The position numbers were made by a program, and so were the translations under genes. From the NCBI GenBank assembly GCA_946803715.1, contig CAMPET010000008.1, positions 1 through 64,000 on the forward strand: DNA of 64,000 bases, read 5' to 3'. Positions 3,005 to 63,490 of this stretch are shown here, one piece after another. Within the stretch, counting starts at the first letter, position 1. Each line of letters starts with the position of its first letter. The notes under the pieces were generated by a model. The model did not search any database. It was not told the origin of the DNA and saw only the letters and a program-made list of their open reading frames with translations. Source of the DNA: Beroe ovata. Lineage: Eukaryota > Ctenophora > Nuda > Beroida > Beroidae.

Positions 3005-3005
3005 N

Positions 3006-6000
3006 TACATCAGGCGTTACAACTCTGCATTTGCCTTTGCTTCTTTTGGTGCACAGGCCAGTCCACCACCCGGTCATGGTCCTTACTGTTTTCGTATTCA
3101 TGGCCAGACTTACCACCGGACCGGTATTTTACATCCAGAGCACGGAACTAATCCCAGTTTTGCTCAGATATATATTCTTGAGGGAACAGGTCAGTTACAA
3201 GCACGCCTCAATAACAACGCTGATTGTCTCCCCAATCTCATGTCTATCATACAGAACACACTGACTGGGATTCCAAACCCGTACATTCACTACTTCAAGA
3301 CAGTCAGTGATATAGAACGTAACGAACAACAGTTCTCCACACTAAACAACGAGCAACCTCAGTCTATCCGTATGATTTTCAAGGAAGGGCCTGACAGAAG
3401 GCGTTACAATGCACCCACATTTGAGGATGATGTTGCTGCTGTATTCGTGGGTGATTCTGACGGCATGCCTGGAACAAGGGATATTGTCATATACCCAACA
3501 TCAGACGATGCACTGAGTCGACTACCCGGTCCAATGCACACATTCACCAGTCAATGTATGTTTCTGTCAGACCATGCCAACTTTTCACAGGAATATCTCC
3601 ATAACATTAACTTACCAACACTGCCACCACACACACTGAATCTGAAGGTTGGGTGCGAGGTTCGTACGCTGAGATCTCTTCCTGACTCTCCTCAAGTTGC
3701 TATTGGATCACGTCTCAAAATCATATGTATCAATCCATTGAATAACGAAATTGTCGCGAAACACGGTAATAATGACATCACTATCCCTATGATTAACTTC
3801 ACAGCTTCACATAACGGTATCCATTTCTCACGTTTTCAATTCCCAATAAAATTGCAGCCTCTATTACAAGACATTTCTCCCATGAATTGCAATATCGATC
3901 CTATGGTTTACCCTCTTCTATTCCCCAGTGGAGAGAAGGGCTGGCACTCTAACATTCACAAGGCCAATAGTTCACGTAGGGTAACACGACTCAACTTCGC
4001 TCAGTATAGGATAGCTTTCCGAAAAACTCCACTCGCTGCTCTGCACTTCTCTAGAAAGCTATATCAGCAATATTTGGTTGATACCTGGGTAAGGATTGAG
4101 TCCGAACGTCTTCAGTTCATCCGTCACAATCAAGTCAAGTTGCGGGCTGAGCATTACTCTGGACTGATGGACTGGGTGGAGCGTGAAGCTCAGCAATTGG
4201 TGAATGAGTATCTCCCGGGGAAACCAGTCATTCTTCCATCGTCATTCACGGGGGGTAAACGGTTCATGCAGCAGAACTATCAGGACACCATGGCGATCAG
4301 TGGCAAATACCATACTCCACAAATATTCCTAACTGTCACATGCAATCCTAAGCACCCTGATATAGTGAATAATCTTGGCAACACCACACATAACGTAGCA
4401 CCAGGCCAAACATTCCAGCCTCATCCTAACTTGACAGCTTCAGATCGTCCAGATATAGTAGCCTCTGTCTTCAAGCTACACCTCATGTATCTCAAGGACG
4501 ATCTGAAGAAGGCCTTTGGTAACCAGGTTGCTCAAGTCCATTCTATAGAATTCCAGAAGCGCGGCCTCCCTCATGCCCATATTCTAATTTGGCTTGCACG
4601 TCCATATCATTTTCAAACAGGCCAAGATATTGATGACTTCATTTGTGCGGAAATACCCGATCCCATGGAAGATCCTGAGCTGCATAGACTGGTTACCAGT
4701 TCTATGATGCACGGCCCATGCGGTCCTGACAACCCGACTGCACCGTGTATGGTCGATGGAAAATGCTCCAAGGGGTTTCCTAAGGATTTCTCATCTCACA
4801 CAGTCCTAACAGAGAATGGATACCCGCTCTATAAACGCACTAATGATGGTAGAAGTTTCAATAAAAATGGTGTGTGTCTGGATAATCGATACGTCGTGCC
4901 GTACAATCCGTACTTCTTGAGGAAATATCAAGCACATATCAACGTTGAGGCCTGCACAAGTATCAACTCAATAAAGTATGTGTTTAAGTACATCTATAAA
5001 GGTCATGACTGTGCCAGTATAGAGAGGATTGAGGTAGATCCACTTACGTATGACGAGATCAAAACATACCTCGACACACGCTATCTGAGTGCACCTGAAG
5101 CATGCTGGAGAATCAGGGAGTTTCCATTGAGTGAGAAGAGTCATACTGTGTATAGGCTCGACGTACATCTTGAGAACGATCAAAACGTTGTATTCAATGA
5201 AAATGATAACATCGAAGAAGTGTTGGAAAGTTCGCGTAAAACGAAACTTACCGAATACTTCACATTGAATGCAAATGTACCAGCAGCACGGAACTTCCTA
5301 TACACTGAAATCCCTGTTCATTTCACCTGGAATGAATCCGGTAAATTCTGGAAGGAACGTCGTCCACCGATATCTACCAATCCTCAAATAGACACTGATA
5401 CACGTGCTGAACAGCTCAAGATCATCTCCAGAATGTACTATGTTTCTCCCCGTGATCGCGAGCGTTTTTACCTGAGACTGCTGCTACTGCATGTGAGGGG
5501 TGCAACTTCATTCCAACACCTGAAGTTCCATAATGTACAGCATTCCACATACCATGATGCATGCATGTCTAGAGGCCTGCTATCAAATGACGCTGAATGG
5601 AATGATGCTATGATTGAAGCATCACAGACTGCCATGCCAGCTCAATTGAGAGACATCTTTGTCACCATTTTGGGTAATTGCCAACCGTCTCAACCTACAC
5701 AATTATGGAATAACTTCAGGATACAGATGATGGAAGATTTCATGAATGTGCATGATCTGAGTGAAAGTGAATCCGAACAACGCGCACTGAATGAAATCAA
5801 TAATTCTCTCAGGCGTAACTATAATAAATCCATCACTGAATTTGGCATTGATTTTATATCTCCACATTTTTCCAATGATACTGACAGTAACATCAATGTT
5901 GAGACAGAGCTTGAACTCAGTCAGCGTCTATATCACTCACTCACTCCAGATCAGACGTTCATATTCGACAGTATCATGAACAGTGTACATCAGCACGGTC

Positions 6001-7346
6001 CCTTACCATCCCAGGATCGGCCCCGAATATACTACATTGATGCTGCTGGTGGGTGTGGCAAAACATACTTATTCAATTCTCTTATATCTGCATGTCTGGC
6101 TGAGGAGCGTGAAGTTGCGGCCTGTGCGTGGACAGGCATTGCCAGCACACTGCTTAAACGAGGACGAACTTGCCATTCTCTATTCAAACTTCCAGTACCT
6201 ATTCTGAACACATCAACTTGCAATGTATCTGCTAATTCACGCCATGCATCGTATCTGAGATCATTGAGCTTAATATTGATCGATGAATCCTCCATGATCC
6301 CACTGCACGCATTCTCTGCCATCGATATTCTATTCCGGGATCTGTGTAACAACCAAGTTCCCTTCGGTGGTAAACTTATTGTCTTAGCAGGGGATTTTCG
6401 TCAAACGTTGCCAGTAACACCACGTGCACATGCAGCTGAAATTCTGGAAAACTGCATCAATAGGTCACTGTTGTGGCAGTATGTACAACAATTTAGTTTG
6501 ACACATAACATAAGGGCGGATCCAAATGAACATGAATTTAAATCATGGCTATTGCAATTGGGTGATGGAGTATTGATAAACTCTGATGTGAATGCTGAGG
6601 ATAACCAAATTGACGTTCCCTGTCAATGTCACATTACGAATGACATTGTCAACGACATTTTCCCCAACTTCACATCCAGTAGATTGAATGATGTCATTGT
6701 AACCCCACTAAACGAGGATGCTGACAAACTAAACATCAAAATTATTGATAAATTCCAACCCCATATCCCAGGTAGGAGTTACTATAGTGTAGATACCCTA
6801 ATTGAGGATGAAGAGAGCGAGGTCAGAAACATAACCACAGAATTCCTAAATTCTATTGTACCGAGTGGATTCCCTCCACACGAGTTGAAACTAAAGGTGG
6901 GTTGTCCAATCATGCTCATCAGGAATTTGGACCAGAAACACGGTTTATGTAACGGTACACGATTAACTGTTACTTCATTGGGTGTGAGAACTATTGAGGC
7001 GGAGGTGATATCAGGGTCTCAAACATTCATTGGAACTAAAGTATTCATACCGAGGATAAAACTTATCCCTTCTGACTCCTCTTTACCATTCAAATTTTCA
7101 CGATTACAGTTCCCAATAAAATTAGCTTACTGTCTTACAATAAACAAAAGTCAAGGTCAAGAATTCAATACTGTGGGAATCTATCTCCCATCCCCTGTAT
7201 TTTCCCATGGACAATTGTATGTTGCGTTTTCTAGGGCTAAAAGGTTCAGTAGTATCTATGTTCAAATAGATAACACTCCCCGACAGTACTCCAATATTTC
7301 AATGAACCTGGGTCGTACAGTCAACATAGTTTATAACGTAAAATAA
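3006..7346 (+). CDS. Helitron Rep/helicase (rolling-circle transposase), 5' end lost at contig join
   Basis: About 1446 codons are open from the join to the stop. Order: Helitron N-terminal domain (around 3990-4200), HUH Rep centre with GLPHAHILIW near 4565-4594, the tyrosine helix with SIKYVFKYIYKG near 4966-5001, then a PIF1-type helicase with Walker A AAGGCGKT near 6043, Walker B LILIDESSM near 6271, GDFRQTLPV near 6391 and the C-terminal NKSQGQEF / LYVAFSRAKRF motifs near 7146 and 7216. These nick one strand and unwind DNA during rolling-circle transposition. No stop or frameshift interrupts the frame, so the copy looks young. The true start is not visible: the frame extends 5' of the n only through the antiphase of the SGNH exon, which is an artefact of the join. 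Helitron 5' TC and 3' hairpin-CTRR ends were not located. Confidence 0.9.
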   Translation, partial: YIRRYNSAFAFASFGAQASPPPGHGPYCFRIHGQTYHRTGILHPEHGTNPSFAQIYILEGTGQLQARLNNNADCLPNLMSIIQNTLTGIPNPYIHYFKTVSDIERNEQQFSTLNNEQPQSIRMIFKEGPDRRRYNAPTFEDDVAAVFVGDSDGMPGTRDIVIYPTSDDALSRLPGPMHTFTSQCMFLSDHANFSQEYLHNINLPTLPPHTLNLKVGCEVRTLRSLPDSPQVAIGSRLKIICINPLNNEIVAKHGNNDITIPMINFTASHNGIHFSRFQFPIKLQPLLQDISPMNCNIDPMVYPLLFPSGEKGWHSNIHKANSSRRVTRLNFAQYRIAFRKTPLAALHFSRKLYQQYLVDTWVRIESERLQFIRHNQVKLRAEHYSGLMDWVEREAQQLVNEYLPGKPVILPSSFTGGKRFMQQNYQDTMAISGKYHTPQIFLTVTCNPKHPDIVNNLGNTTHNVAPGQTFQPHPNLTASDRPDIVASVFKLHLMYLKDDLKKAFGNQVAQVHSIEFQKRGLPHAHILIWLARPYHFQTGQDIDDFICAEIPDPMEDPELHRLVTSSMMHGPCGPDNPTAPCMVDGKCSKGFPKDFSSHTVLTENGYPLYKRTNDGRSFNKNGVCLDNRYVVPYNPYFLRKYQAHINVEACTSINSIKYVFKYIYKGHDCASIERIEVDPLTYDEIKTYLDTRYLSAPEACWRIREFPLSEKSHTVYRLDVHLENDQNVVFNENDNIEEVLESSRKTKLTEYFTLNANVPAARNFLYTEIPVHFTWNESGKFWKERRPPISTNPQIDTDTRAEQLKIISRMYYVSPRDRERFYLRLLLLHVRGATSFQHLKFHNVQHSTYHDACMSRGLLSNDAEWNDAMIEASQTAMPAQLRDIFVTILGNCQPSQPTQLWNNFRIQMMEDFMNVHDLSESESEQRALNEINNSLRRNYNKSITEFGIDFISPHFSNDTDSNINVETELELSQRLYHSLTPDQTFIFDSIMNSVHQHGPLPSQDRPRIYYIDAAGGCGKTYLFNSLISACLAEEREVAACAWTGIASTLLKRGRTCHSLFKLPVPILNTSTCNVSANSRHASYLRSLSLILIDESSMIPLHAFSAIDILFRDLCNNQVPFGGKLIVLAGDFRQTLPVTPRAHAAEILENCINRSLLWQYVQQFSLTHNIRADPNEHEFKSWLLQLGDGVLINSDVNAEDNQIDVPCQCHITNDIVNDIFPNFTSSRLNDVIVTPLNEDADKLNIKIIDKFQPHIPGRSYYSVDTLIEDEESEVRNITTEFLNSIVPSGFPPHELKLKVGCPIMLIRNLDQKHGLCNGTRLTVTSLGVRTIEAEVISGSQTFIGTKVFIPRIKLIPSDSSLPFKFSRLQFPIKLAYCLTINKSQGQEFNTVGIYLPSPVFSHGQLYVAFSRAKRFSSIYVQIDNTPRQYSNISMNLGRTVNIVYNVK

Positions 7347-14200: not shown

Positions 14201-14934
14201 CTATCATTTCTTTCAGCAATTCCGCTCTACTTTTGCATGCCAGCTCCTTTGATGATGTGTTTCTTCATAATATTCCGTATGATGACAGCCTCTTCGTGTT
14301 TCTTCCCAATTATCCTTGTCAATGAGTACATGCCAACCCTTATCCGGAACTTCATGGCATCAGTTGTAATTTTTCTTGCTAGAAGCAGCAGTTCTTTAGC
14401 AATTTTCGTTACTGAATGCCTAGTTAATGCTGGACCAAGAGCAGTGTTTGGGATCATTCAATTTGTCACAATATGCAGTTTTTGCTCATTAATATTTCTG
14501 AAAAGAGAGACAAGGGACGTGGATCTTCTTTGAATACATCGTGTCTTATTGGAATTAACTATTCTAATTCTGTTCTAGTAATTGGGATTTTAAGATATGC
14601 TGTTCCTCTAAATGCCAAAAAACAGACATTTGTAGAATCAACACTATTGGTACTGAAAGCTCAAACTCAAATGGTAATATTTAATATGTATTCAAATGGT
14701 AATATATGTATTCAAATGGTAATATCTAATATATATTTAAGATAGATTTCTTCTTTTAAATACTTTACCAAGGGCTAGGTATGTTCCAGATTTATCCTGC
14801 TTTGGAAGTTTGTGTATAAAAGTTGAAAGCATTAATAAGCTAGATAGGCCTTTATTCAGTCCCATGTTCATTTCATTGACCATACTTTCTGCCATTTTTG
14901 ACAATCTTTCTGGTGCAACCTCAAATTCAATCAT
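11228..14934 (-). CDS. Hexokinase/glucokinase, five exons seen, C-terminus missing
   Basis: Five minus-strand exons join in phase: 14769-14934, 12008-12192, 11763-11918, 11503-11682, 11228-11340 (266 codons). They give the family order: EMN-GLN...MLSTFIHKLP and GTYLALD|FGGSTFRVILVKL (phosphate-1 loop), PLGFTFSFP and LIRWTKGF (sugar binding), ALANDTAGT with the catalytic Asp, VILGTGSNAAYVEE, then NIEWGNFGEFG and NPGKG. The enzyme phosphorylates glucose with ATP in the cytosol. The last exon ends at a good gtaagt donor, but no following exon (expected EKM-SGMYLGE and the whole C-terminal lobe, about 180 residues) is seen before the contig end at 9197. Intron 1 (2.6 kb) contains an intronless MFS gene on the opposite strand. 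A second copy of exon 1 lies at 19072-19237. The ATG at 14934 follows a possible acceptor, so a short upstream exon is possible. Confidence 0.85.
13037..14533 (+). CDS. MFS transporter, SVOP/SV2-like, intronless and nested in the hexokinase intron
   Basis: A single open frame of 498 codons. After about 55 polar residues come 12 predicted membrane helices in two bundles, with a long cytoplasmic loop between helices 6 and 7 and an extracellular loop with paired Cys between helices 7 and 8. The MFS signature GDTIGRKP follows helix 2, and ISRTILG-like RTILGVFIGVGI and AETMPRKLRALG match the organic-ion/SV2 branch. The substrate cannot be read from sequence. A start at Met12 (13070) is as likely as 13037, since ctag|acttgATG could be an acceptor. 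It lies entirely inside hexokinase intron 1 on the other strand. Lack of introns among intron-rich neighbours suggests a retrocopy origin, though no poly-A tail or target duplication is evident. Confidence 0.85.
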   Translation: MLTYYYHHLDLMRPDETTLLRDSCVNETGKSDNAITADENTHELDISDAIEGAGYGFGTLLYQLGTVLFCCMDGAEIFIMSVVGPILKCEWNLSSFQLSMLQSSSMLAMTVGGLISAPLGDTIGRKPLALTGALMSTITGTLSVFSQNYFQFLISRTILGVFIGVGIIPSLVWCAETMPRKLRALGFAQNSLAWGTGSFIAAAIAYFVLEPFGWRGLVLSIPVVFFPSSIIMGFMKDSPRYDYYRGNHDKALSTIKSIYRLNCKSEVRFKLKPHSSSIDHTASSRLTFRSVKMELKSSGTIFSIIFIFIVAITSYFAYYVTSYAIPQILNEGYCRNLVVHHNQSCSFNKDALFKIGLVNLSEPLGLIITLIVIETSCGRRITSLGTTALSFLSAIPLYFCMPAPLMMCFFIIFRMMTASSCFFPIILVNEYMPTLIRNFMASVVIFLARSSSSLAIFVTECLVNAGPRAVFGIIQFVTICSFCSLIFLKRETRDVDLL

Positions 14935-15078
14935 TGTCCTGTTTGAATAATTCTCATTCAGTATGGTTTACACAATGCAGATTGCAGAAAATATAACTAT
15001 AAGTGCAATGATTCTAGTTCTAAGAGCTATAAATTTTAGAATAAGTAACCACAACATGTTAGTTGCAGCGAATTTTAA

Positions 15079-15141
15079 TCATAGCATATGACATCATCAG
15101 GCTAGAATTGTATTTCTGCCTGATGATAACATATGCTATGA
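15079..15141. repeat. Imperfect hairpin upstream of hexokinase exon 1
   Basis: Arms tcatagcatatgacatcatc-aggc and gcctgatgataacatatgctatga pair over 24 bases with two mismatches around a 15-base spacer. It is MITE-like in size and lies about 150 bases 5' of the hexokinase start. The second allele copy is at 19378-19446. Confidence 0.75.
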
Positions 15142-15840
15142 TGACACCATCTTGACACCATTTCTCTTGACCCCAATTCCGCTTCACAACATTCTCTCTC
15201 TTAACACAAATCCATTGATACACTATTACACCAATTCTCTTGACAATACTACTCTTGACACTATCCTCTGTAGATACTGCTCCCTCTTGATATTGTACCT
15301 TTTCTCAACAGTACTTCACGTGACAACCCTCCCTCTTGACAAGAGAACTTAGTGTCAAGGGCGTGTGGTGCCCTTGACACTAATTTCTCTTGACACTACT
15401 CCACTTGAAACAACTTCCACTCAAAACTTCAATCTTTTGACACTTATTTTCTTGACAACATTTTTTCTAGAAAACTATTTTCTCCTGACACCACTCCCTC
15501 TTGACACCATTTTCTCTTGACGTCTCTTTTGCGACAAAAGTCCATTTGACACCACTCCATTGACTAACCAATTATTTTGATAAGTCTATCTCATGACAAT
15601 ATTCTCTTTTGACACCATTCCCTGTTGACACTTCTTCTCTGGACAGCACTTTTCCTAAAAACTATTCTCTCTTGACACCACTCCCAGTTGGCACTATTCT
15701 CTCTTGACACCACTCCCTCTAGACATCACTTCTCTTGACACCATCCTCTCTTGATGCCTCTCTCCCCACACCAGTCCATTCGACACCATTCTCTAGATAC
15801 ACCGATTTTTCTTGATAGGTCTATCTCTTGACACTATTCT
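15142..15840 (+). repeat. Degenerate TTGACA-type minisatellite
   Basis: Irregular 15-22 base units of the form ctcttgacaccactc fill this stretch. The unit spacing drifts and many units are substituted. An internal hairpin at 15349-15383 has arms ttagtgtcaagggc with a 7-base loop. The array is cut by the n at 15841; the allele copy runs on to about 20345. Confidence 0.85.
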
Positions 15841-15841
15841 N

Positions 15842-16122
15842 GGCGCCACTATGGCGCCACTATGGCGCCACTAGAGCGCCACTAAAGCGCCATGATGACG
15901 CTACGATAGCGCCACTATGGCGCCACCGCGGCGCCACTATGGCGCCACTGAGACGCCACTATGGCGCCACTGAGACGCCATGAAAGTGCCACTAGAACGC
16001 TACTGGAGCGCCATGACAACGCCATGACACAGCCATGTTAGCGCCACGAGAACGCCATGACGGCGCCATGGCAGAGCCACGATAGAGCCACGAGAACGCC
16101 ATTTAAGTGCCATTTCATAAAT
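15842..16122 (+). repeat. Terminal inverted repeat with internal ggcgccact array
   Basis: About 20 units of ggcgccact-at/ga form, 10-13 bases each, decaying toward the interior. Many units contain the palindrome ggcgcc, so the terminus can fold on itself as well as with its partner. The innermost 61 bases match 17394-17454 exactly in reverse complement. Confidence 0.85.
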
Positions 16123-16272
16123 TCTGCTTCAATATGATTTGTTGTTCATAAATTTTGGTTATTCATGAATTTTGGTTATACTGAAGGATCAGAAAGGAAT
16201 ATAGATAAACATGATAGATATGGATAAAAAACAATGAATTCTAATAGTCAAAAACAATGTATAAAAGTTAAT

Positions 16273-16870
16273 TCAAAAATCGAGCAAATACTGATGGTAA
16301 TCATCCTCGGAAATGTTCAGCCACTCCAATGCGTCCTTAAGGGGGGTGCCGATGTCAAGAAGGGCACGGACTTTAGAAGCCAGGTTCGGTATGAGGGACG
16401 TGGACTTGTCTACAATCTGCCTCTTGTGTGCAGAACAGAGACGGATCTCAGCAACAAGTATCTCCGATCCAGTGTCGCATGTCTTGTAGGAGTAGGCGTG
16501 TCGACACTGTGTGCAGTGTGACTGCACGGGGGCGGGAGCTGGGGGCCTCAGAGTCGCACAAGGAGTCGACATGACCCAGCTCCCCACAGGAGGAGCAGTT
16601 GATCAGCTGCACTCCCACACTGGATTTGGTGGGCTCCACGGTTGTTGAAACGGTTCGGACACCGAGGTCGTCAGATTCTGTCTCGCAGGTGAGGCTGAGA
16701 CGACTGGAAGCTGAAGAGGCTGCCCGGCACTTCCTCTTCCGCTTCGATCCGCTGGCAACCTCTGAAGTAATGCTGCCAGAGGTCTCTTGGAGAAGGTCGG
16801 GCTCGGCCTGGAATCTGACCCTTTGTCGTACAGTTCTTGTGGTAGAGATAGAAGAGGTAGACTTAGGCAT
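16273..16870 (-). CDS. Merlin accessory ORF, CCHC knuckle plus C2CH motif, frameshifted or spliced
   Basis: One frame starts with ATG at 16870 and encodes a basic, Ser-rich stretch (SGSKRKRKC) and then CSSCGELGHVDSLC, an exact CX2CX4HX4C zinc knuckle, before running out at 16448. A second frame (down to 16273) continues with CTQCRHAYSYKTC and LCSAHKRQ, a CX2C...CX2H arrangement. The move between frames lies near 16530-16590, where a cag acceptor with a C-rich tract exists, so a short intron or a frameshift is possible. The second motif resembles CEDC...HCSIHKQ in the ORF at 18296-18894. I know no function for it. Confidence 0.5.
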
Positions 16871-17170
16871 TGTGAAAATGAATTGAGACTGAAAGACGAA
16901 AGTGGATATAATTTCTTGTGATGGGAGGACGACTTATATCTAGGCACCGGATGTCTCAAATTGCATCACGTGACCCAACACCAGCACGCGACCTCATGAT
17001 TGTGATAGGGCAGGTCACGTGATGCAATGATTAGGGTGGGTCATGAAACAGGAGGTGTGGTAGCACGTGATCTAATGATTTGGGATGGGTCTGAACTCTG
17101 ATTGCACGGAAGGAACTTAATGATATACTAATATATAACACTCATGCCATATCGAGCAATATAGCAAATC

Positions 17171-17401
17171 ATGAACACAGCAAGCTACAAAGATTTGAAG
17201 AATGCTGGACTATTCCAGGGGGAGGACAACTGTCTCCAGTATCTCCTCGACGTCGGTATCCTTCCTCAGCACAAGAAATGCCCCGAATGCTCGCAGTTCA
17301 TGACATCCCAGCAGTGCTCCACTAAGAAGTACAGAGATGGTTACTGCTGGTCTTGTTGCGGGCAGTACATTTCCTTTCGGGTTGGGAGTGTCCATTTATG
17401 A
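17171..17401 (+). pseudogene. Merlin transposase N-terminus (zinc ribbon), truncated by the inverted repeat
   Basis: 76 codons. CPECSQFMTS...YWSCCGQ-like CWSCCGQYISFRVGS forms the CX2C...CX2C zinc ribbon typical of the start of IS1595/ISXO2-like and Merlin transposases, which binds the element ends. After RVGS the frame enters the right inverted repeat and stops within a few codons. The linker and DDE domain that should follow are missing here; a DDE domain is found on the next contig. Confidence 0.75.
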
Positions 17402-17521
17402 AATGGCACTTAAATGGCGTTCTCGTGGCTCTATCGTGGCTCTGCCATGGCGCCNGAAAGGAATATAGATAAACATGATAGATATGGATAAAAAACAATG
17501 AATTCTAATAGTCAAAAACAG

Positions 17522-18085
17522 GGGGAAATCAGGGAGAAGATGGCATTAGATGTGCGAACCTCACCGCAAATTGGGGGACCGGGAGAGACTGTTGAAATCG
17601 ATGAGGCTAAGTTCGGAAAGCGAAAGTTCAACGTTGGGAGACTGGTGAATGGCAGCTGGGTTCTAGGCGGAGTTCAGCGGAGATCTGACAACTGTTTTCT
17701 AGAGCTCTGCCCGAACAACTGCAGATCCGAGGCAGCACTTCTTCCCATTATACAAAAGTTCGTCCTCCCTGGGACAACCATCATCACGGACATGTGGAAG
17801 GGGTATGTCAACCTCTCCAAGTTCGGCTATGTCCACAAAGTGGTCAACCATTCTCGCTCCTTCGTCAACCCCGCAACAGGAGCGCACACAAATCAGATAG
17901 AGGGTACCTGGAGTCACGTCAAGTGGAGGGTCCTCAAGCGTGGTGGACGTAGAACAGAGAACAGCTTGACTATGGATTTGAACCAGTTTGTGTGGCTCAA
18001 GCAGAAAGGACTTCTTACTACACCCCACAGAGCCCAGCTTCTCTTCAGCAGAGATCTGCCCAAACTTCTGAACCCGCTCGTTTAA
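17522..18085 (+). CDS. Merlin/ISXO2-like transposase, DDE domain, N-terminus missing
   Basis: The open frame encodes the whole catalytic core: PGETVEIDEAKFGKRKFN (first Asp), WVLGGVQRRSDNCFLE, GTTIITDMWKGY (second Asp), HSRSFVNPATGAHTNQIE (catalytic Glu in QIEGTW), then HVKWRVLKRGG. This is the Merlin family signature. The enzyme cuts and joins transposon ends. The ATG at 17498 belongs to the fused subterminal sequence, so I start at the junction; the family's zinc ribbon and HTH-like linker are absent. The frame is intact to its stop, so it decayed little since the rearrangement. 3' to it lies a 200-base AT-rich spacer and then the convergent accessory ORF. Confidence 0.85.
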   Translation, partial: GEIREKMALDVRTSPQIGGPGETVEIDEAKFGKRKFNVGRLVNGSWVLGGVQRRSDNCFLELCPNNCRSEAALLPIIQKFVLPGTTIITDMWKGYVNLSKFGYVHKVVNHSRSFVNPATGAHTNQIEGTWSHVKWRVLKRGGRRTENSLTMDLNQFVWLKQKGLLTTPHRAQLLFSRDLPKLLNPLV

Positions 18086-18295
18086 TTTTCATTCTAACTG
18101 AGTTTTAAATTTATGTTACTGTACAGTAATGCAGCATATTACGTATTGCTTTATTTGAGAATTGAGAGTCTTAAATTGTCAAACAAAATCACAGATTCAT
18201 AATTACGGAACAGAATGAATAAAAAATTACAGATTAAAATAAAACAAAGTATAATTGCAGATTCGAAACAATTAATTGCGAATTTATATTTAGTT

Positions 18296-18894
18296 CTACA
18301 GCAGAACTCCTCGACTAATGAGGATTCTCTTCTTTGCTAGCAGTGTCTGATCAGTTGCTAGTGCCGCTTTGCACTTGATAGACAACTCCTCTTGGTTGAT
18401 CTTACTTTTCGAAGAAGAACGAGCAATTCTGTCGAGAACTTTGTTGAAAGTACCCTCGTCAACAAGGAATAGCTCAGCTACCTGCCGTTTTCTCTCAAAA
18501 GTCCTCCTCGAGAGGCCAACCTCTTTGATCGCTGCATCCTGCGATCTGGGATGTTGAGGGTCCTGGGTTAGCCTGACAACTTCCACGTAAACCTGTACAG
18601 AAGCATTCGAGGAGGTGGGCCTGTGGCTCCTTGTCTGTAAGACAAGCGGAGTTGCAGCAGAAACTGCTGCCTGAGATGTTGGCAGGCGACTAGGGTGGAT
18701 GCGCGTATTGGACGTATTAAGAGTAGGTGTAGGTGGTGGAGCTACTGCGGCGTGCCTCACTGGGGGAGCACGGAAATTCTGCTTGTGGATAGAACAGTGT
18801 TTGAAGTCCACTCGTGTGTCAACAGAACCGTCGGTATGTTTGACAAATGTGAAGTCTCTCACCAAACAGTCCTCGCAGGAGATAACTGAGGGTC
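18296..18894 (-). CDS. Merlin accessory ORF with C2CH motif and helical C-terminus, 5' end at contig join
   Basis: About 199 codons open from the n to the stop. Near the N-terminus CEDCLVRDFTFVK...HCSIHKQ gives CX2C...CX2H, alike in spacing and flanks to the motif in the piece 1 accessory ORF. A Pro/Ser/Thr-rich linker follows. The last 100 residues are predicted helical, with AAIKEVGLSRRTFERKRQ resembling a helix-turn-helix and then a basic helix. It reads convergent with the transposase. No family is recognised; a DNA-binding cofactor of the transposon is inference from position and motif sharing. Confidence 0.55.
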
Positions 18895-19071
18895 NTGTTC
18901 CTCTAAATGCCAAAAAACAGACATTTGTAGAATCAACACTATTGGTACTGAAAGCTCAAACTCAAATGGTACCTAATATTTAATATGTATTCAAATGGTA
19001 CCTAATATATCTATTCAAATGGTAATATCTAATATATATTTAAAATAGATTTCTTCTTTTAAATACTTTAC

Positions 19072-19237
19072 CAAGGGCTAGGTATGTTCCAGAGTTATCC
19101 TTCTTTGGAAGTTTGTGTATAAAAGTTGAAAGCATTAATAAGCTAGATAGGCCTTTATTCAGTCCCTTGTTCATTTCATTGACCATACTTTCTGCCATTT
19201 TTGACAATCTTTCTGGTGCAACCTCAAATTCAATCAT
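19072..19237 (-). pseudogene. Second copy of hexokinase exon 1 (likely the other allele)
   Basis: Encodes the same exon as 14769-14934 with three residue changes, including Lys instead of Met in EMNKGLN, which is the usual residue in hexokinases. It has the same donor. No downstream hexokinase exons exist on its minus-strand side, as expected if this is a misplaced allele rather than a gene. Confidence 0.75.
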
Positions 19238-19377
19238 TGTCCTGTTTGAATAATTCTCATTCAGTATGGTTACACAATGCAGATTGCAGAAAATATAACT
19301 ATAAGTGCAATGATTCTAGTTCTAAGAGCTATAAATTTTAGAATAAGTAACCGCAACATGTTAGTTGCAGCGAATTT

Positions 19378-19446
19378 TCATCATAGCATATGACATCATC
19401 AGGCTAGAATTGTATTTCTGCCTGATGATAACATATGCTATGATGA
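19378..19446. repeat. Hairpin, second allele copy
   Basis: Same hairpin as 15079-15141, with arms extended to 27 bases because tcatcatagc here pairs with gctatgatga. Confidence 0.75.
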
Positions 19447-20345
19447 CACCATATTGACACCATTTCTCTCGACCGCAATTCTGCTTCACAACATTCTCTC
19501 TCTTAACACCAATCCATCGATACACCATTACACCAATTCTCTTGACAATACTACCATTTGACAGTATCCTCTGTAGATACTGCTCCCTCTTGATATTGTA
19601 CCTTTTCTCAACAGTACTTCACGTGACAACCCTCCCTCTTGACAAGAGAAATTAGTGTCAAGGGCGTGTGGTGCCCTTGACACTAATTTCTCTTGACACT
19701 ACTCCACTTGAAACAACTTCCACTCAAAACTTTCATCTTTTGACACTTATTTTCTTGACAACATTTTTTCTAGAAAACTATTTTCTCCTGACACCACTCC
19801 CTCTTGACACCATTTTCTCTTGACGTCTCTTTCCTGACAAAAGTCCATTTGACACCACTCCATTGACTAACCAATTATTTTGATAAGTCTATCTCATGAC
19901 AATATTCTCTTTTGACACCATTCCCTGTTGACACTTCTTCTCTGGACAGCACTTTTCCTAAAAACTATTCTCTCTTGACACCACTCCCAGTTGGCACTAT
20001 TCTCTCTTGACACCACTCCCTCTAGACATCACTTCTCTTGACACCATCCTCTCTTGATGCCTCTCTCCCCACACCAGTCCATTCGACACCATTCTCTAGA
20101 TACACCGATTTTTCTTGATAGGTCTATCTCTTGACACTATTCTCTTTTGACACCACTCTCTGTTGACAGTTTTTCTCTGGACTGAACTTCCTTTCACAAT
20201 TTCCTCTTGGCACCACTCCCTCTTGACATCACTTTCGTGTAACACTTTTTCTCTTCGCAGCACTTGCACTTGACTCTTTTCTCTCTTGACACCACTCTCT
20301 CCTAACAGTTTTCTCTCTGAACGCTTCTCTCTACATCACATCTGC
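19447..20345 (+). repeat. TTGACA-type minisatellite, longer allele copy
   Basis: Continuation of the same degenerate ctcttgacaccactc array for about 900 bases. At 19643-19695 it contains a perfect 23-base-arm palindrome with a 7-base loop; the other allele has one mismatch in it. Confidence 0.85.
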
Positions 20346-62934: not shown

Positions 62935-63490
62935 NTACCTTAAGATCCCTGCTCTGTGAAATGAGCCACTTGTTGATGAAGCCATAAGGATCTGACGCAA
63001 AGGACAACATGAACTCTCTCTTAGTCTTGAGAGCCTTGATACTGTCCACAGTTTCATAGATTTTCTGATCAAGACTCATTATCTCCTGCTGAGTGACTGT
63101 TGAGAGTAAGAAGTTGTTCATTTGCTGCTTCAGGGTGTCATCTACTTCCACACTGCAAATAAGCTTGAGGTGAATGAATCGATCATGTTCTAAAGTTTTT
63201 CTTGTACCTAGTTCAGTTTCAACGAAACAGTTTTTCCAAGTTACTTTTTGTTATAGTGTAATGATCGTAGAGTTCAACACTAACTTGATATCCCAGTGAG
63301 TGACACTCTTAGTCTCTCCTGGCTCCACTGCAACCACGTGCTCAATGACTATCGGATCAGGTTGCTGGAACAGATGATTCAGCTTGAAGGGAATGTCACT
63401 GAACTTGAGAGTTGGTGTTTCAAATATACTCTGCAGATACTCGTCACACTTGATTGTGTCTCGGTGGATGGGATCTTGCAGCTTGTTGCT
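62598..63490 (-). CDS. SMARCD: SMARCD/BAF60 SWI/SNF subunit, last three exons seen
   Basis: Exons 63285-63490, 62939-63152, 62598-62792 join in phase to 204 codons and a stop. They match the C-terminal half of BAF60: [11 protein letters not shown] and [20 protein letters not shown] (end of the SWIB domain), [45 protein letters not shown] and [20 protein letters not shown]. The protein links transcription factors to the SWI/SNF remodelling complex in the nucleus. The N-terminal half and start of SWIB should lie beyond 63490 on the minus strand, mostly outside the window. The intron after the middle exon begins gta, then the n, then a 66-base C run (G on the plus strand). Confidence 0.93.
62869..62934 (+). 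repeat. 66-base poly-G tract at a contig join
   Basis: Uninterrupted G from 62869 to 62934, then the n. It lies in a SMARCD intron three bases from the splice donor. The length is probably unreliable. Confidence 0.9.

Follow-up and report, generated by a model that had tools for sequence, protein, structure and literature searches.

A Merlin locus with two opposite-strand reading frames

The window analysed here is a 64-kb stretch of DNA from Beroe ovata (contig CAMPET010000008.1; C8:1-64000), whose source genome was searched over 77.8 Mb in 534 contigs. At 15842-18894 it holds two pieces of a Merlin transposon, and, as the first-pass annotation had noted, both carry parts of a Merlin transposase on the forward strand and a long open reading frame (ORF) on the reverse strand (16273-16870 and 18296-18894), hereafter companion 1 and companion 2 (Table 1). 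Merlin transposons are generally portrayed as short-ended elements that carry a single gene. The firmest new feature reported here is that the ends of two Merlin families in this genome are built of 11-bp iterons, and we weigh whether the companions could be proteins that recognise them.

Piece 1 (15842-17454) opens in an array of iterons, for which Tandem Repeats Finder (TRF) gives the consensus units GGCGCCACTAT and AGCGCCATGAC and whose outer end is lost at the N at 15841; its transposase N-terminus runs directly into the right arm, the DDE part being gone. Companion 1 sits here between identical 61-nt inverted arms, divergently from the transposase N-terminus. Piece 2 (17456-18894) has lost companion 1 and the transposase N-terminus and ends at the contig end after companion 2, whose own N-terminus is cut away at the N of 18895 (the TTG start listed for this ORF falls on the other side of the join). 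Companion 2 and the DDE domain share one gap-free contig in which the right flank of companion 2 is missing, and a 14-nt motif of the inverted-repeat inner end has no good match in 18086-18894 (at best 5 mismatches on the forward and 4 on the reverse strand). Since the pieces share a subterminal tail, we infer that they are internally deleted derivatives of one Merlin subfamily, whose parent would have had the order left repeat, companion 1 (-), transposase (+), companion 2 (-), right repeat, with companion 2 presumably lying within the element.

The sequence inside each piece is contiguous and gap-free. The two are separate contigs, bounded by single Ns at 15841, 17455 and 18895, and they lie between flanks (14601-15840 and 18896-20143, one on each side) that are mutually 97% identical, so that the position and order of both contigs are assembly inferences and uncertain. 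These near-duplicate flanks look like two haplotypes of one place, possibly scaffolded in series, or like a misjoin. Both are rich in a TGACACCACTCTCTGTTGAC-like minisatellite.

Iteron-built ends in two Merlin families

The DDE domain of piece 2 scores 58.6 bits on PF12762 (DDE_Tnp_IS1595), whose cut-off is 27. A related family is represented by an uninterrupted 300-aa Merlin transposase at a contig end (C306; L010 5129-6028), which scores 69.8 bits on the NCBIfam IS1595 model, below its cut-off of 75. D135, D198 and E235 are invariant in an alignment of 18 sequences (C306 and 17 database relatives), and the catalytic D-D-E residues are likewise present in the window DDE domain when aligned to C306. 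With 377 relatives of C306 at E <= 1e-5 (one with a named coral source among the 120 listed), Merlin-type transposases are well represented in the protein database searched; no relative of the window DDE domain was found among viral contigs. A 3' motif common to the window DDE copy and other Merlins was also considered and is not relied on (p 0.012 for C209, 0.29 for C153 and 0.41 for C306).

The window copies have their own outer ends unassembled (the best terminus match has 7/20 mismatches), and three relatives with similar inner arms and a similar transposase start were found at C3, C25 and C66, the outer terminus being read at C3 and C25 and not at C66. This terminus, GGCATTCTTCAGAACAGCGACGCC, begins with GG (as GGGCATTC) and occurs at 57 places in the genome with at most 3 mismatches (30 forward, 27 reverse), against 0 for a reversed control. 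A paired-end scan of 37 loci (30 of the terminus and 7 further ones, partly overlapping) yielded six distinct elements with both ends. Perfect 8-bp target duplications flank three of the six (L046, which also appears as L047; L048; and L055), all with termini reading GGG; the others are imperfect, with 1/8 mismatches at unequal offsets in L043, 2/9 in L054 and 4/9 in L071. Among unique arms, 18 of 34 have a lag-11 identity of at least 0.5. At C3, an imperfect palindrome of ~95 nt (L036 2969-3063), perhaps another hairpin element, lies directly against the Merlin derivative on its right-arm side.

A second family is represented by DDE remnants at C153 (L012 4051-4930) and C209 (L013 4030-5053), in elements of 880 and 1024 bp. 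Both have perfect 8-bp duplications, the left terminus GGGCAT and arms made of different 11-bp repeats; across lags 5-24, the top lag is 11 or 22 in all five arm stretches tested. Its terminus is found at 114 genome places with at most 3 mismatches (70 plus 44), compared with 0 for the control. Four further loci of this terminus were inspected: L075 matches at 7/8 duplication positions, L072 has one end only, and L073 and L074 are one element, with 4/8 positions matching at the nominal offset. In both Merlin families the ends start with GGGCAT and combine 8-bp target duplications with 11-bp iterons. The right arm, its start placed by eye, begins ~154 bp (C153) and ~86 bp (C209) after the DDE homology, which leaves no room for companion 2 in these two elements. 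At C522, a long open frame that appears reverse transcriptase-like by eye (L011 4305-6194) continues from the end of a Merlin remnant.

The companions as candidate proteins

The CX2C...CX2H block that the first-pass annotation took to be shared is present in both ORFs, while the likeness of their sequences is not significant: Smith-Waterman comparison with companion 2 gives p 0.48 for the C-terminal and 0.17 for the N-terminal frame of companion 1, and p is 0.03 when the C2CH blocks are compared with the four ligands held fixed. The CCHC knuckle ascribed to one ORF is likewise present, in companion 1, and is out of frame with the C2CH block of the same companion. As the two motifs lie in different reading frames, of 140 and 104 aa and overlapping at 16448-16587, this copy is frameshifted; a by-eye look on the sequence for a spliced reading that avoids the frameshift gave nothing convincing. 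In 20,000 composition-preserving shuffles, for motifs picked after seeing the sequence, the C2CH pattern (spacing 15-30) arose in 0.03% for companion 2 and 0.2% for the companion 1 C-terminal frame, and the knuckle in 0.01% for the N-terminal frame. The stop-free length of companion 2 is matched in 1 of 2000 order-1 Markov samples (p 0.0005).

In the single-sequence AlphaFold models of both companions, a two-strand hairpin lies between the two pairs of ligands and helices come after it. The companion 1 model is poor, and the one confident part is a helix-turn-helix in companion 2 (predicted local distance difference test, pLDDT, of 84, 89, 91 and 78 over residues 101-140). The best Foldseek match of the companion 2 model is a phage protein at E 0.14, and sigma region 4 chains as well as Brinker rank below it; such matches are compatible with a helix-turn-helix and are not evidence of kinship. 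The term zinc ribbon, as applied to the companions, is a reading of the ligand spacing and the predicted hairpin, not a database match.

Pfam and NCBIfam gave nothing above cut-off for either companion; for the N-terminal frame of companion 1, which was searched in its own genome and in these two databases only, two zinc-knuckle models were hit below cut-off (E 0.05 and 0.17). No homologue of companion 2 was found in prokaryote genomes, viral contigs or PDB sequences, nor one of the companion 1 C-terminal frame in viral contigs. Searches of the 77.8-Mb genome at the protein and DNA level turned up no full second copy of either companion. Copies away from Merlin had been named as an observation that would count against the companions, and none was seen. 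A low-threshold search with companion 2 gave two weak places, at E 0.07 (C472) and 0.3 (C17). Three tblastn matches to companion 1 in L013 (E 0.005 with 28% identity and an internal stop, 0.10 and 0.64), all more than 1 kb outside the C209 element, were set aside as chance.

The 3' end of companion 1 does recur. Its last 12 codons are also found at C3 and C25, next to where the transposase begins, and read SEEDYHQYLLDF-stop and, in alignment, EELDYHQYFLDI-stop there, compared with SEDDYHQYLLDF-stop in the window; with this stop end kept in copies of 75-76% identity over 16960-17219, the 3' end is older than the split of the copies. Both loci join the companion 1 end to the upstream region at one common deletion junction and so represent one lineage from which companion 1 has been deleted. 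The expectation that a companion would keep its position between copies is borne out for the 3' end of companion 1 at two loci, which count as a single lineage.

Elsewhere, the gene content of the window includes a RhoGAP/BAR protein, a PLD-like protein and a helitron, which by itself points to an animal. The helitron is an open frame of Helitron type (3009-7343) in which PIF1 and Helitron_like_N domains are recognised, and it closely follows an N at 3005. At 62935, a single N beside 20 or more consecutive G marks a further contig join.

Table 1. Features of the two Merlin pieces, in window coordinates.
Feature	Position	Strand	Basis or remark
Piece 1: left long terminal inverted repeat, ~25 head-to-tail 11-bp iterons	15842-16122		TRF; lag-11 identity 0.70
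Inner 61 nt of left inverted repeat	16062-16122	+	exact reverse complement of 17394-17454 (100%)
Left subterminal tail, 134 bp	16123-16256		last 65 nt (16192-16256) repeated exactly at 17456-17520
Companion ORF 1, C-terminal frame, 104 aa	16273-16587	-	CX2C-X22-CX2H block; end predicted to be helical
Companion ORF 1, N-terminal frame, 140 aa	16448-16870	-	ATG at 16870, basic stretch, CCHC knuckle
Divergent intergenic region, companion 1 to transposase	16871-17170		16960-17219 75-76% identical at C3, C25
Merlin transposase, N-terminal part with zinc ribbon	17171-17393	+	45% to C306 transposase over 67 aa, E 1e-20
Inner end of piece 1 right inverted repeat	17394-17454	-	lost beyond N at 17455
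Start of piece 2, 65 nt of left subterminal tail	17456-17520	+	identical to 16192-16256
Merlin transposase, DDE domain, its three catalytic acids all present	17521-18085	+	PF12762; joined straight to tail
Transposase 3' region, 210 bp	18086-18295		inner-end motif scan
Companion ORF 2, 198 aa to N at 18895	18296-18894	-	CX2C-X23-CX2H block, linker, predicted helix-turn-helix

Known analogues and competing explanations

The elements share with the Merlin superfamily (the IS1016 group of IS1595; PMC8101967, PMC10045372) the DDE_Tnp_IS1595 domain, the D-D-E residues, GG termini and 8-bp duplications, GG termini with target duplications of 8 or 9 bp being listed as Merlin hallmarks (PMC8101967). 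They differ in their long inverted repeats of 11-bp iterons and in two further candidate ORFs, which lie on the opposite strand and do not overlap the transposase. Repeat lengths of 23-51 bp stated in PMC8101967 are in line with the short ends attributed to Merlin; the same source describes some Symbiodinium Merlins that carry a C-terminal ZZ zinc finger and tandem repeats, the latter in units of 52 bp and with one set present again in the opposite orientation. No companion genes for Merlin are described in the titles or abstract openings found by a literature search, the scope of which left out most subscription papers.

By analogy, the nearest working counterpart of the companions would be TnpA of En/Spm, and the nearest counterpart in layout KolobokP. 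En/Spm elements make target duplications of 3 bp, and the elements here differ in their 8-bp duplication, in their unrelated transposase (PF12762) and in having GGGCAT rather than CACTA termini, while arrays of short repeats, in the form of 11-bp iterons, are present in their ends. Transposition requires TnpA, which recognises subterminal repeats; the TnpA/TnpD system of En/Spm (CACTA) has a known DNA-binding second protein acting on short terminal repeat arrays, such as is only proposed here (PMC2613891). Deletion derivatives of En/Spm are moved in trans, a further proposed likeness, whereas TnpA arises by alternative splicing and the companions lie on the opposite strand (PMC2613891). KolobokP has its second protein downstream on the complementary strand; this protein is a His-Me finger nuclease, and the element has a Kolobok transposase and long terminal direct repeats (PMC9587614). 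In the window, the transposase is instead of the PF12762 type, and the repeats at the ends are inverted rather than direct. Foldback elements, with long inverted repeats containing internal repeats, also resemble the elements described here. The foldback-type Tm1 is, by the title of its report, Mutator/Foldback (PMC3169594), in contrast to the Merlin transposase fragments found here.

We tentatively favour the reading that the companions are subfamily-specific accessory proteins that bind the iterons, like TnpA of En/Spm in function, and regard it as quite possible while short of probable. They would be small DNA-binding proteins, each predicted to combine a zinc-ribbon-like hairpin with a helical or helix-turn-helix end, that may attach to the 11-bp iterons, whose spacing is close to one helical turn, and that may either aid the transposase in bringing the ends together or control its activity; in the first family, short foldback copies would have been moved in trans. 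Because the ends are iteron arrays, the earlier idea that a companion might bind the GC-rich ends gains support that is circumstantial only. The broader proposition that this Merlin lineage evolved a two-component system, of a transposase and one or two opposite-strand zinc-ribbon/helix-turn-helix iteron proteins in parallel to TnpA/TnpD, appears doubtful.

Several results weigh against an accessory role. Neither companion has an intact copy (companion 1 is frameshifted, companion 2 truncated), and the open length of the longer companion 1 frame is matched in 3.2% of order-1 Markov samples (p 0.032). A codon test, with 14 long frames (not all domain-checked) as reference genes, speaks for the companions in scoring the own frame best of six for companion 2 (z 4.3 vs 3.5) and the companion 1 C-terminal frame (3.6 vs 2.3), with the N-terminal frame tied (3.8 and 3.8); it is feeble, however, since only 9 of the 14 reference frames score best in their own frame, the window DDE does not, and the N-terminal frame outside the overlap has 3.3 vs 3.4 antisense. 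The hairpin parts are of low confidence in both models (mean pLDDT 52.8 for companion 1 and 48.0 for companion 2), Foldseek found nothing at E <= 0.001 for the companion 2 model, and 5.8 billion proteins, in the same database that gave the 377 relatives of C306, held no homologue of companion 2 or the companion 1 C-terminal frame; the companions either evolve too fast for such searches, or are confined to this subfamily, or are not genes. By tblastn, no companion lies beside the DDE domain at C306, C522, C153 or C209. At C306 and C522 iteron arrays are likewise not visible near the transposase, a weak silence, as both loci are cut by contig ends or Ns there; the second family, by contrast, has iterons and a DDE domain without companion 2, and its iterons thus do not require that protein.

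The companions could be open frames without a function, left as decayed filler or arisen by chance where transposon DNA is richer in GC. The frameshift of companion 1 and its length (p 0.03), the lack of homologues and the non-significant similarity between the two fit this explanation, and there is a precedent in an opposite-strand ORF of a Symbiodinium Merlin, which overlaps the transposase and which its authors take to be probably due to chance (PMC8101967). Neither companion overlaps the transposase, however, and the length of companion 2, the rarity in shuffles of two zinc-ligand patterns and a knuckle, and the helix-turn-helix confidently predicted from a single sequence speak against it; we consider this explanation somewhat unlikely. 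Pack-type elements, which capture gene fragments, offer another analogy, in which the ORFs would be host gene fragments taken up by a long-inverted-repeat element. Their GC content (0.50-0.57, compared with 0.37-0.48 across 2-kb bins of the window) and the restriction of the layout to one subfamily would suit such an origin, but a parent gene would then be expected in the genome, and the absence of a second full copy speaks against a resident host gene as the source; together with the start-to-stop layout of companion 1, frameshift apart, and its stop kept at C3 and C25, this makes capture distinctly improbable.

For companion 2 alone there is the explanation that it is foreign to the element, piece 2 being a truncated copy beside unrelated sequence or an assembly chimera. 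Piece 2 does break off with its contig before any right inverted repeat is reached, companion 2 is single-copy, the right repeat follows the DDE domain after ~86-154 bp in two second-family elements, and near-duplicate flanks are joined by Ns; on the other hand, the DDE domain and companion 2 lie in one gap-free contig with no right-end motif between them, and the predicted order of a C2CH hairpin followed by helices is that of companion 1, which is inside an element. We rate a foreign origin as unlikely, though a serious contender. The companions might also be putative repressors that lack a catalytic domain and compete with the transposase for the ends, given that their architecture resembles the DNA-binding half of the Merlin transposase. 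Profile comparison, through which we considered and rejected the companions as duplicates of that half, places the companion 2 helix-turn-helix (residues 102-133) on transposase columns 90-121, a match that is not significant (p 0.04, probability 1.3%), and gives companion 1 a match of 12 columns only (p 0.10), so that repressors of this kind appear improbable.

Weighed against these alternatives, the accessory-protein reading is supported in part. The first-pass observation was largely right and stands with the corrections given above. Its suggestion of a conserved Merlin companion holds to the extent that companion 1 is inside the element, with its 3' end in the same place at C3 and C25; with four other DDE loci lacking a companion, conservation in Merlin in general is not supported, and a pair of putative DNA-binding companions restricted to this subfamily is plausible, though unproven.

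For the iteron ends themselves the evidence is solid. Their presence in two Merlin families raises the question of what recognises them and makes that question testable; the companions, if real, would be ready candidates for iteron recognition and an independent case of a design that pairs a transposase with an end-binding protein.

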